From the NCBI GenBank assembly GCA_022822665.1, contig JAJEAR010000030.1:1-64000 (forward strand): DNA of 64,000 bases, read 5' to 3'. The stretch's first letter is position 1; each line of letters starts with the position of its first letter. The notes beneath the pieces are model-generated. The model was not told the DNA's origin. It worked only from the letters and a program-made list of their open reading frames with translations, and searched no databases. A program made the translations under genes and the position numbers. The stretch is from Alphaproteobacteria bacterium. GTDB taxonomy: Bacteria > Pseudomonadota > Alphaproteobacteria > Thalassobaculales > Thalassobaculaceae. Positions 17,973 through 54,146 of the stretch are shown one piece after another.

Positions 17973-18860
17973 ATGACAACTGTCGACAGCCAGCGCGGAG
18001 TCCAGGCGAAGGGCCTGCTGTTCGCCCTGTTCGGTATCCTGCTTCTGTCGCCGGACACCCTGATCATTCGCCTAGTCGATACCGATCCCTGGACCTTCAT
18101 CGCCTGGCGCGGAGCGCTGATGGCGGTTGGAATGACCGTCATCATCGTCGCTCTGCATGGTCTGGCGACACCGGCGCGGGTCATCGCGATCGGATGGCCA
18201 GGGATCGTGATTGCCGTGCAGTTCGCGGTCAACAATGCCGCCTTCCAGCTCTCGGTACAGAGCACGTCGGTGGCCAACACCCTTGCGATCATTGCCACCG
18301 CGCCACTGTTTGCCGCCATCTTCTCCGTGATCCTGCTGCGTGAACGGGTCCCGCTGCGCACCTGGGTCGCGATCGGCCTGTCGCTTGCGGGAATTGCACT
18401 TGTATTCGCCGGCGACTGGCAGACCGGCGCCAGCCAGTTCGGCAATGTCGCCGCCCTGGTAACGGCGATCGGGCTTGGCGGGCACTTCGTTCTGGTGCGG
18501 CTGGCGCGACCCAGGGACATGACCCCGGCGATCGCCGCCGGCGGGGTGCTGATCTGCCTGAGCGGCCTGGTCATGGCCGAGTCGATCTACGTGGCACCGG
18601 TCGGGTTCGGACTGCTGGCGGTGCTCGGCCTCATCCTGCTGCCGGTCTCCTTCCTGCTGCTGACCCGCGCGCCGCGGTACATTTCCGCGCCGGAGGTCAG
18701 CCTGATTCTGCTGCTCGAAACCATCCTGGGCCCGCTTTGGGTGTGGCTGGCGATTTCCGAGACACCGCCGCTGCTCACGCTGGTCGGCGGCGGCATGATC
18801 ATTGTCGTGCTGGCTGTTCACGCCATGATTGCACTAAGGGCCACGCCTCCGGGAAGATGA
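17973..18860 (+). CDS. DMT superfamily (EamA) transporter
   Basis: A 295-aa inner-membrane permease with ten predicted helices in two EamA repeats. The first repeat begins LLFALFGILLLSPDTLIIRL with the typical PWTFIAWRGALMAVGM; the second begins around residue 155 (NVAALVTAIGLGGHFVLVRL). The end of repeat two, SLILLLETILGPLWVWLAI, contains the conserved Glu-x3-Gly-Pro found in most EamA proteins. Such proteins usually export amino acids or metabolites, and the substrate here is unknown. The ATG follows GGGAAGGGC. Hairpins flank the gene on both sides (17938-17961 and 18869-18940). Confidence 0.9.
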   Translation: MTTVDSQRGVQAKGLLFALFGILLLSPDTLIIRLVDTDPWTFIAWRGALMAVGMTVIIVALHGLATPARVIAIGWPGIVIAVQFAVNNAAFQLSVQSTSVANTLAIIATAPLFAAIFSVILLRERVPLRTWVAIGLSLAGIALVFAGDWQTGASQFGNVAALVTAIGLGGHFVLVRLARPRDMTPAIAAGGVLICLSGLVMAESIYVAPVGFGLLAVLGLILLPVSFLLLTRAPRYISAPEVSLILLLETILGPLWVWLAISETPPLLTLVGGGMIIVVLAVHAMIALRATPPGR

Positions 18861-18868
18861 AGAGCCAT

Positions 18869-18940
18869 GGGGACTTATATCGATGACTGGTGCGACATCC
18901 CACCAGTTAGCCTGGCGCACCAGTCATCGATATAATCCCC
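18869..18940 (+). repeat. Long inverted repeat (hairpin) before the amidohydrolase gene
   Basis: The arms 18869-18894 and 18916-18940 are reverse complements over 25 bases with a single extra C (18874) in the left arm; the loop is 21 bases. The right arm ends five bases before the ATG at 18946. No T run follows, so it is not a classic terminator, although it could end EamA transcription. It could also be a small mobile repeat or an RNA structure that controls the downstream start. Confidence 0.7.
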
Positions 18941-18945
18941 GAGCC

Positions 18946-19851
18946 ATGCAGATCGTCGACGCGCATCATCATTTCTGGGATCTTTCGGCCGGCCGCCACC
19001 CGTGGCTGGTCGGTGATCCCGAACCCGGGTTCTTTCTCGGCGACTACTCCGCGATCAGGCGGACGTACCTGCCGGACGACTATCGCCGCGATGCGGACGG
19101 GTTCGATGTCGTTGCCACAGTGCATGTGGAGGCCGAGTGGGACCGGTACTCGCAGGTCGCGGAAACCGAGTGGCTCACCGGTCTCAACCGGGAGTACGGG
19201 CTTCCCAGTGTCATCGTCGGCCACGTGTGGCTCGCTGCGCCGGACTGCGAGAACATCCTGCGCGGCCACATGGCCCACCCGCTGTTTCGCGGCGTACGCT
19301 CGAAGCCGGTGACCTCGCCGGACGGGAACCCCGCGTCACTGCCGGCGGCAGGCACCATGCGGGACCCGGCCTGGCGTGCCGGTCTCGCCGTGCTCGAGCG
19401 GCTCGGGCTGACCTATGATCTCAGGGTTCCGTACTGGCACCTCGAGGAGGCGGCCGATGCCATCGGACCGCACGGCGACCTGCCGGTAGTCCTCAACCAC
19501 ACCGGGTTTCCCTGGGATCGCAGCGAGAACGGACTTGCCGCGTGGCGAACCGCGATGAAGACGCTTGCAGCCCTGCCGAATGTCCATGTGAAACTGTCGG
19601 AACTCGGGTTGAAGGACGCGCCGTGGACCGTCGACGGCAACCGGCGCGTCGTGCGCGAGGCGGTGGAGATATTCGGGACCGAGCGCTGCATGTGGGCGTC
19701 GAACTTCCCGGTCGCCGGCCTGCGGATCGGCTACCGCGAACAGCTCGAGGGGATGTTCGAGATACTGGGCGACCTGTCGGCAAACGAGCGGGACCGGGTG
19801 TTCCGCGGGAACGCCGCGGCCTTCTATCGCATCGACGGCGTCGAGCCGTAA
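18946..19851 (+). CDS. Amidohydrolase 2 family (PDC lactonase-like) protein
   Basis: A 301-aa TIM-barrel metal-dependent hydrolase of the amidohydrolase-2 group, whose members include 2-pyrone-4,6-dicarboxylate lactonase and L-fuconolactonase. The N-terminal metal motif is VDAHHHFWDL at residues 4-13. Further barrel landmarks are VLNHTGFPWDR, NVHVKLSELG and MWASNFPV with a closing Asn/Ser site, while AAAFYRI ends the barrel as in fuconolactonases. The start at 18946 matches the conserved MQIVDAHHH, but it has no obvious Shine-Dalgarno sequence because the hairpin arm occupies the space upstream. Substrate is unknown; a lactone is most likely. Confidence 0.85.
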   Translation: MQIVDAHHHFWDLSAGRHPWLVGDPEPGFFLGDYSAIRRTYLPDDYRRDADGFDVVATVHVEAEWDRYSQVAETEWLTGLNREYGLPSVIVGHVWLAAPDCENILRGHMAHPLFRGVRSKPVTSPDGNPASLPAAGTMRDPAWRAGLAVLERLGLTYDLRVPYWHLEEAADAIGPHGDLPVVLNHTGFPWDRSENGLAAWRTAMKTLAALPNVHVKLSELGLKDAPWTVDGNRRVVREAVEIFGTERCMWASNFPVAGLRIGYREQLEGMFEILGDLSANERDRVFRGNAAAFYRIDGVEP

Positions 19852-52756: not shown

Positions 52757-52847
52757 GCCGGGCACTATGCTGGCAACGATCGAGCCTGGCAAGCAAGCTG
52801 GCCCCGGGGCGGATGTGCCGTTTTCCGTGGCCCCGGGGAAAGGCGGC

Positions 52848-54146
52848 ATGGCACGCGCGCAGGAAATCTCCGCGACCCGCAGTGTGGCATTCGACATGCT
52901 GCGCGGTGTGCTGGCCCGCCGCCGCACACTTGACCGGGAGATGACGACCCACAACGGCTATCGGCGGCTGCCGGCCCGGGACCGGGCGTTCGCGCGGCTC
53001 ATCGTTTCCACCGTGCTGCGGCGCGCCGGCCAGATCGACGCCGTGCTCGATGCATTCCTTGACCGGCCGCTGCCGCGAAACGGTGCCGCGGTCCAGGACA
53101 TCCTGCGGCTGGCGACGGCCGAGATGCTGTTCCTGGGCGTGGGCGCGCATGCCAGTGTCGACAGCGCGGTCTCGCTGACCACCTCGCGCGGGCTCGAACG
53201 GTTCAGCGGACTGGTGAACGCGGTGTTGCGTCGTGTGGCCCGGGAAGGCGGCGCGGCCCTGGCCGGGATTCCGGAAACGCGGAACCTGCCCGACTGGCTG
53301 CTTGCGAGCTGGACCGACAGGTTCGGGACCGAGGATGCCGAGCGGGCGGTTGCCGCGTCCCTTGCGATCCCGCCGCTCGACATCTCGGTGCGGGCTGACG
53401 CGGAGCGCTGGGCCCGGGAACTCGACGCGACGGTCCTGCCGACGGGAACCCTGCGCAGGAAATCCGGCGGATCGGTCAGCGACCTGCCGGGGTACGCCGA
53501 TGGCGCGTGGTGGGTGCAGGATGCGGCGGCGGCGCTGCCGGTGCGCCTGTTCGGCGATCTCGATGGCAGGACCGTGCTGGACCTGTGCGCGGCACCAGGC
53601 GGCAAGACCGCCCAGCTGGTGGCAGCCGGCGCCAGGGTGACGGCCGTCGACCGCGCGCGGTCGCGGCTTGACCGCCTGCGCCGCAACCTGGCCAGGCTCG
53701 GCATGAAGGCGCGCACCCTGGTGGCGGACGGGACCGCGTGGAGAGCCGGGCGTCCGTTTGACTGCGTGCTCGTGGATGCACCGTGCCTTGCGACCGGGAC
53801 TATTCGCAGGAACCCTGACAGCCTGCACAACAAGCACCCCGGCCATCTCGAGGGGCTGATCGCGCTGCAGGATGCGCTGCTCGATGCGGCGAGGGAGCTG
53901 GTGCGCCCCGGTGGACGCATCGTCTACTGTACCTGTTCGCTGCAGGTCGAAGAGGGCGAGGACCGGATCGAGGCGCTGCTCGGCCGGGCGCCGGGGCTAC
54001 GCCGTGTACCGGTGAGCGCCGGCGAGATCGGGGGCCTCGACGCGGCGGTGACCGGGACCGGCGACATGCAGACCATGCCGTTCCATCTCGCCGGGCACGG
54101 TGGAATGGACGGGTTCTTCGCCGCCAGGCTGGATCGCGAGGCCTGA
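52848..54146 (+). CDS. rsmB: 16S rRNA (cytosine-967-C5)-methyltransferase
   Basis: A 432-aa protein with an N-terminal NusB-like RNA-binding domain (TRSVAFDMLRGVLARRRTLD to about residue 140) and a C-terminal Rossmann methyltransferase. SAM motif I is VLDLCAAPGGKTAQLVAAGA. The two cysteines of RNA m5C enzymes are in VDAPCLATGTIRRNP and in IVYCTCSLQVEEGED. The start at 52848 follows GGGGAAAGGCGG; the longer frame enters the SdhAF4 control region. It is followed 60 bases later by rpe. Confidence 0.92.
   Translation: MARAQEISATRSVAFDMLRGVLARRRTLDREMTTHNGYRRLPARDRAFARLIVSTVLRRAGQIDAVLDAFLDRPLPRNGAAVQDILRLATAEMLFLGVGAHASVDSAVSLTTSRGLERFSGLVNAVLRRVAREGGAALAGIPETRNLPDWLLASWTDRFGTEDAERAVAASLAIPPLDISVRADAERWARELDATVLPTGTLRRKSGGSVSDLPGYADGAWWVQDAAAALPVRLFGDLDGRTVLDLCAAPGGKTAQLVAAGARVTAVDRARSRLDRLRRNLARLGMKARTLVADGTAWRAGRPFDCVLVDAPCLATGTIRRNPDSLHNKHPGHLEGLIALQDALLDAARELVRPGGRIVYCTCSLQVEEGEDRIEALLGRAPGLRRVPVSAGEIGGLDAAVTGTGDMQTMPFHLAGHGGMDGFFAARLDREA

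Follow-up and report, generated by a model that had tools for sequence, protein, structure and literature searches.

A probable MITE-like derivative of a TnpB element, tipped with group II intron sequence, at the start codon of an alphaproteobacterial amidohydrolase gene

We find that a strong hairpin directly upstream of an amidohydrolase gene, in a 64,000-nucleotide stretch of alphaproteobacterial DNA (hereafter the window), is a 71-bp insertion with an 8-bp target duplication. What appeared to be a regulatory hairpin thereby becomes an insertion at a start codon, of a known general kind with unusual parts. Quite probably, it is a MITE-like deletion derivative of a TnpB-carrying element that also contains the tip of a group II intron. 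If ends bearing such intron tips remain mobile, DNA transposons and retroelements would swap parts at their tips. The features concerned are collected in Table 1.

Table 1 Features of the gene junction and of the inserted element (window coordinates)
Feature	Position	Strand	Basis or remarks
Upstream gene, EamA-family transporter	17973-18860	+	PF00892, 9.1e-18; stop TGA 18858-18860
Target-site duplication, copy 1, GAGCCATG	18862-18869		Holds ancestral start codon 18867-18869; empty site in congener G001, locus L022
22-codon frame from ancestral ATG	18867-18935	+	Ends at TAA 18933-18935 within the element
Inserted element (hairpin), 71 bp	18870-18940		Sequence, fold, inverted-repeat list
Terminal inverted repeat, right-end-type tip GGGA, then GTGCG	18870-18894	+	Likeness to L014 of G001
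Group II intron (D1D4-6 type) nucleotides 1-29	18892-18920	-	28/29 identical to L099 and L106
Terminal inverted repeat, left-end-type tip GGGG; intron tip begins after its 20th base	18916-18940	-	
Target-site duplication, copy 2, GAGCCATG	18941-18948		Contains the present start codon, ATG 18946-18948
Amidohydrolase (Amidohydro_2)	18946-19851	+	PF04909, 5e-41; 93% identical in G001

Insertion at the amidohydrolase start codon

The predicted fold of the hairpin (-48.8 kcal/mol) is far more stable than that of shuffled sequences (mean -21.7, sd 3.1; z -8.8), none of 200 shuffles being as stable, and it ranks first among the 16 inverted repeats that the window contains at a minimum length of 18 bases and a span of up to 150, with 89% complementarity where no other repeat on the list exceeds 86%. 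The second repeat on that list, at 52781-52859, has 30-nt arms that are 70% complementary. An earlier note on this DNA described arms matching over 25 bases with one extra base and a 21-base loop, a right arm that stops five bases short of the ATG, and no T run behind the hairpin, and reading the sequence bears out all of this. It missed two properties: when aligned ungapped, the arms (GGGACTTATATCGATGACTGGTGCG and GGGGATTATATCGATGACTGGTGCG) are 25 bases long and differ by two substitutions (23/25 identical), and the 71 bases are flanked on each side by an exact copy of GAGCCATG, the downstream copy including the start codon. A promoter and terminator scan of 18600-19100, which takes loops of 3-8 bases only and is blind to this hairpin, reported no such site.

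Identical 8-mers spaced 79 bases apart occur at 5 of 63,910 window positions, and one such pair coincides precisely with the tips of the hairpin; over all offsets from 40 to 399 the rate of identical 8-mers in the window is 6e-5. In the congener G001 (same genus), where the amidohydrolase is 93% identical, the site is uninterrupted and lacks the hairpin, the sequence passing directly from what by eye appears to be the same transporter stop to the ATG. Given the exact duplication at the tips together with this empty site, the hairpin is read as a 71-bp insertion with an 8-bp target duplication; it is the mere appearance of a pair of 25-bp terminal repeats separated by 21 bp, and no regulatory role is needed to account for it. 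Conservation of the stem among relatives, which the earlier note had put forward as a check, finds no footing in a congener from which the hairpin is absent.

The insertion has separated the start codon from the upstream stop, ending a tight 6-nt gene junction: the distance from the TGA to the ATG, formerly 6 nt, is now 85 nt. The element contains a further ATG, at 18883, that shares the reading frame of the amidohydrolase. As the 22-codon frame opened by the ancestral start codon terminates 10 nt ahead of the present ATG, reinitiation from it could preserve some amidohydrolase expression, and the element may incidentally alter that expression.

This assembly (87 contigs, 95.47% complete, 2.66% contaminated) contains the element once, so that mobility of the 71-bp form is presumed. 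No whole copy was detected in the other 97 genomes of relatives (E up to 0.1) or in the other 384 genomes of a sample of the class (E up to 1e-4), an exact 20-mer search of genome contigs (a set from which near records may be absent) returned 0 stretches, and blastn against plasmids and phages gave no match. Three weak matches in this genome (L003, L004, L005) turned out on reading to be no second copy and are taken as chance. With one copy in the genome and none whole in the relatives or the class sample, a multi-copy repeat is rejected. The earlier suggestion of a small mobile palindromic repeat is right as to kind, the element having terminal repeats, a target duplication and an empty counterpart site in G001; the many copies by which the earlier note would have recognised a repeat did not appear.

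Terminal repeats shared with TnpB-carrying elements

We searched six chosen genomes for the outer 20 bases of the element, allowing up to 3 mismatches and using the reversed pattern as control, and obtained 50 matches against 14. The excess is clear in G319 (13 vs 1) and G416 (16 vs 2), and smaller in the genome of the window (G000, 6 vs 1) and in G001 (7 vs 2), whereas G417 (4 vs 6) and G100 (4 vs 2) show little or none. As is seen with mobile elements, many of the good copies are close to the end of a contig, and several bound TnpB-type genes. L138 (G001:C11:22347-23726) is 1380 bp long, encodes OrfB_IS605 and Cas12f1-like TNB domains over cut-off, begins with GGGGCTTGTATCGAAAGG, has at its far end a decayed inverted form of that end (12/20 alike), and is flanked by an exact 8-bp duplication, AAAGGGTT. 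L141 (G319:C44:41359-41720), of 362 bp, has ends that are 11/20 alike and an exact 8-bp duplication, TAACATTT, and by eye looks like an internally deleted TnpB element.

These are the 2 of 13 other elements for which a second end was found together with an exact 8-bp duplication, a combination that never arose in 100 Markov control runs (mean 0.0, maximum 0). The remaining 11 gave no second end with duplication, the contig stopping within 650 bases in only 4 of them; L101, L103, L108, L139 and L144 are among the loci for which no second end was found. Of the first 20 bases of the + strand terminal repeat of the window element, 19 equal, by reading, the TnpB right end of L014 in G001, a fragment whose TNB match is below cut-off.

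The two ends of these elements appear to differ in their tips. Among ends classified by script, right ends begin GGGA (9/9) and left ends GGGG (5/5, or 4/4 without the doubtful L134, the left-end call for which was made from a subterminal motif alone), and the window element has one tip of each kind, GGGA and GGGG. Among the copies dropped by the classifier, L178 and L145 (GGGG) are in line with the rule, L104 (GGAG) and L183 (GGCG) are altered left ends, and L124, right-end-like but GGGG, is an exception. Of the two mismatches between the window arms, at positions 4 and 5, the one at position 4 alone obeys the left/right rule; an A at position 5 of a left-type end occurs elsewhere only in L134.

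Behind L134 there is no TnpB, and the sequence encodes an IS1182-type transposase fragment (PF01609, 3.3e-13); the NCBIfam IS1182 match to this fragment (1.9e-16) is far below cut-off, and its IS1182 relatives on plasmids stand at 47-53%. The IS1182-type transposase fragment behind a GGGGAGTGTACCGATGG end in G001:C51 (L188, 2142-2729, minus strand) could be another candidate mover. At L129 and L133 of G416 the repeat takes a second form, with ACATGGACACGGTCATGCC after it, which by eye is perhaps another TnpB-type family.

Group II intron sequence inside the repeat

Reading the minus strand of the element inward, the sequence after the 20th base of the left-type end is identical at 28/29 positions to nucleotides 1-29 of a group II intron, and an intron with this start is found in other Alphaproteobacteria. 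Rfam names it group-II-D1D4-6 (L106, 1.1e-43; L196, 5.3e-39; L102, 1.1e-37; L107, 1.4e-30), with a further match below the gathering score at L009 (35.9 of 49 bits), and the maturase frame of L197 matches RVT_1 (4e-33), GIIM (1.8e-6) and, over cut-off, TIGR04416, with a domain V/VI-like end by eye. The element shares with this intron the 5' end GUGCG and the ensuing family sequence; domains I-VI and a reverse transcriptase are absent from its 29 nt, and no intron family was detected in 18700-19100.

Half of the ten intron starts outside this genome (L099, L100, L101, L103, L108) follow a recognisable repeat. In these five, the intron or its 5' tip is situated approximately 20-21 nt inside the terminal repeat, reading inward. 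The other five (L102, L104, L105, L106, L107) lack a recognisable repeat, their preceding sequences ending in TTG (3), CTG (1) and TGG (1). The same repeat-intron junction is present in L009, L038, L099, L100 and L108, with 0-3 substitutions in the repeat, and in L099 and L100 the intron occupies the place where the repeat of the TnpB elements has ACA after TTG. L101, L103 and L108 resemble, by eye, intron tips of about 50-150 nt. Across the class sample of 385 genomes, the intron-start pattern is present in 3, among them the genome of the window, and its reversed control gave no match. Our first idea, that the outer arm is a mere 5' exon of the intron, was replaced, similar sequence being found to bound TnpB elements. 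At L144 (2916, minus strand) and L139 (489, plus strand), the repeat and GTGCG are followed by sequence unlike either this intron or a TnpB end, and no intron family was found there at E 0.01.

Origin, movement and alternatives

The explanation that we prefer, and hold to be quite probable, is as follows. A non-autonomous, MITE-like 71-bp element transposed between the EamA and amidohydrolase genes, duplicating 8 bp, as the duplication and the empty site show. By sequence likeness, it comprises hardly anything beyond a pair of terminal repeats of the TnpB-element kind, one end continuing into the first 29 nt of the group II intron found in this repeat elsewhere. Its origin would most likely be the internal deletion of a TnpB element with an intron already in its left repeat, and a DDE transposase acting in trans would have moved it; the IS1595 family is the likeliest source of that enzyme, and this choice of family is the weakest step. 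One intron alone leaves the presence of GTGCG at both ends unexplained; either both repeats may have carried introns, or the arms may have been evened out through copying of the hairpin, a step made possible by the CGC match at its turn.

An IS1595-type transposase is proposed because of the 8-bp duplication and the GGG ends, and these weakly suggest that such an enzyme moved the element. The family member ISApl4 has the left end GGGGCTGTACTAGA and 8-bp direct repeats (PMC12561309). Among our own genomes, G416 contains an IS1595 element (L150) of 2172 bp, with a 312-aa transposase (PF12762, 7.6e-41), GGGGATTATATACGTGTTTACCC at both ends and the duplication CTTCGAAA; IS1595 copies with GGGGATTATATACG ends thus occur in a genome other than that of the window. 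The end pattern gave 5 matches in 4 of 29 IS1595 loci (Markov controls, n=40: mean 0.4, maximum 2), the match at L154 lying farther out than those of the other three loci, and paired ends are complete in L150 only. Nine other loci, serving as natural background, yielded 3 matches in 151,037 bases, two of which are the window's own ends. The likeness between the ends of the element and those of IS1595 covers about 11 bases, and no transposase-bearing element with exactly the ends of the window element was found. There are four IS1595 transposase matches in this genome, for which no paired ends were found. One IS1595 transposase match (G000:C61:122941-123387) is on the same contig, outside the window and approximately 104 kb from the element. 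Nor does an IS1595 transposase accompany such ends in every genome: at E 1e-5, G319 yields no IS1595 match, despite having the most TnpB-type ends in the six-genome search apart from G416, although at 93% completeness it may have lost one, or one may not have been assembled.

An alternative means of producing the arms is fold-back copying, whereby a strand bearing the repeat and intron nt 1-29 snapped back on itself where three nucleotides match (CGC to GCG, at nt 3-5 of the intron), copied itself into a palindrome and was joined into a staggered break. By reading, the arms share 20 consecutive identical bases, GTGCG included, and the CGC match sits at the turn, both of which speak for such copying. 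However, copying would give like tips, and the tips differ at positions 4 and 5, the former in the way that left and right TnpB ends do. These differences favour two genuine ends over self-copying, though not strongly, and we consider fold-back copying unlikely, weighting it slightly higher because position 5 is explained only via the doubtful L134.

Explanations without a mobile element fare worse. A cis-acting RNA hairpin controlling the amidohydrolase, in keeping with the control structure suggested in the earlier note, would suit the very stable fold at the ribosome-binding region, yet the congener possesses the gene without the hairpin, and the three Rfam matches all fall far short of the gathering score of their family (the best, to a microRNA family, scores 23.4 bits where 83 are needed), and we regard this reading as highly improbable. 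An atypical intrinsic terminator serving the EamA gene, also raised previously as a rho-independent signal, could draw on a strong stem starting 9 bases past the stop codon; the T tract is absent, however, the stem is much longer than is usual for intrinsic terminators, and the target duplication and the intron homology would be left unexplained, so that its probability is close to negligible. Much the same slight chance attaches to an assembly artefact: the genome is indeed fragmented, incomplete and slightly contaminated (figures given above), but a chimera is not expected to give an exact duplication, intron homology and unlike tips, and a 144,159-base contig runs through the element.

The deletion derivative that we prefer resembles MITE-like elements in being short, in lacking a transposase gene in its 71 bp, in its terminal inverted repeats (23/25), in its target duplication with an empty site, and in sharing its ends with larger elements (here the TnpB-type L138 and L014). 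Many copies are usual for MITE-like elements, though not required. It differs from them in its single copy, in an interior consisting of a group II intron tip, and in that its larger relatives here carry TnpB, no transposase having been found in them. It is like the IS1595 family in having ends that start GGGGCT or GGGACT and 8-bp duplications, and unlike it in having no transposase and in agreeing at the ends over about 11 bases only. The OrfB_IS605 and Cas12f1-like TNB domains of its larger relatives ally them with TnpB elements (IS200/IS605, IS607), yet two of these relatives have terminal inverted repeats and 8-bp duplications, neither of which IS607 elements possess (PMC6188088). Among the titles and abstract openings listed in literature searches, we found no TnpB elements with IS1595-like ends, no TnpB-bearing elements described as having terminal repeats and 8-bp duplications, and no group II intron in such ends.

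With group II introns of the Rfam type group-II-D1D4-6, the element has in common the first 29 nt, directly after insertion-site sequence; without catalytic domains or a reverse transcriptase it is a fragment, not an intron. IStrons (PMC4227781) are the union of a group I ribozyme intron with an insertion sequence, whereas here it is a group II tip that lies 20-21 nt inside the end. A wider proposal, which we offer as speculative and rather doubtful, is that a group II intron lineage of Alphaproteobacteria uses the repeats of TnpB transposons as its landing site, and that intron-tipped ends might still be recognised by a transposase, so that 5' tips would travel as miniature DNA transposons, much as IStrons ally an intron with an insertion sequence but with group II introns as the partner.

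The most promising lead, the group II intron within a terminal repeat, comes from beyond the window. We also note, as a separate observation, a tandem pair of group II reverse-transcriptase matches at the end of a contig (L096, G001:C16), with a D1D4-6 signal between the two matches and, past the second, a domain V signal that stays below threshold.
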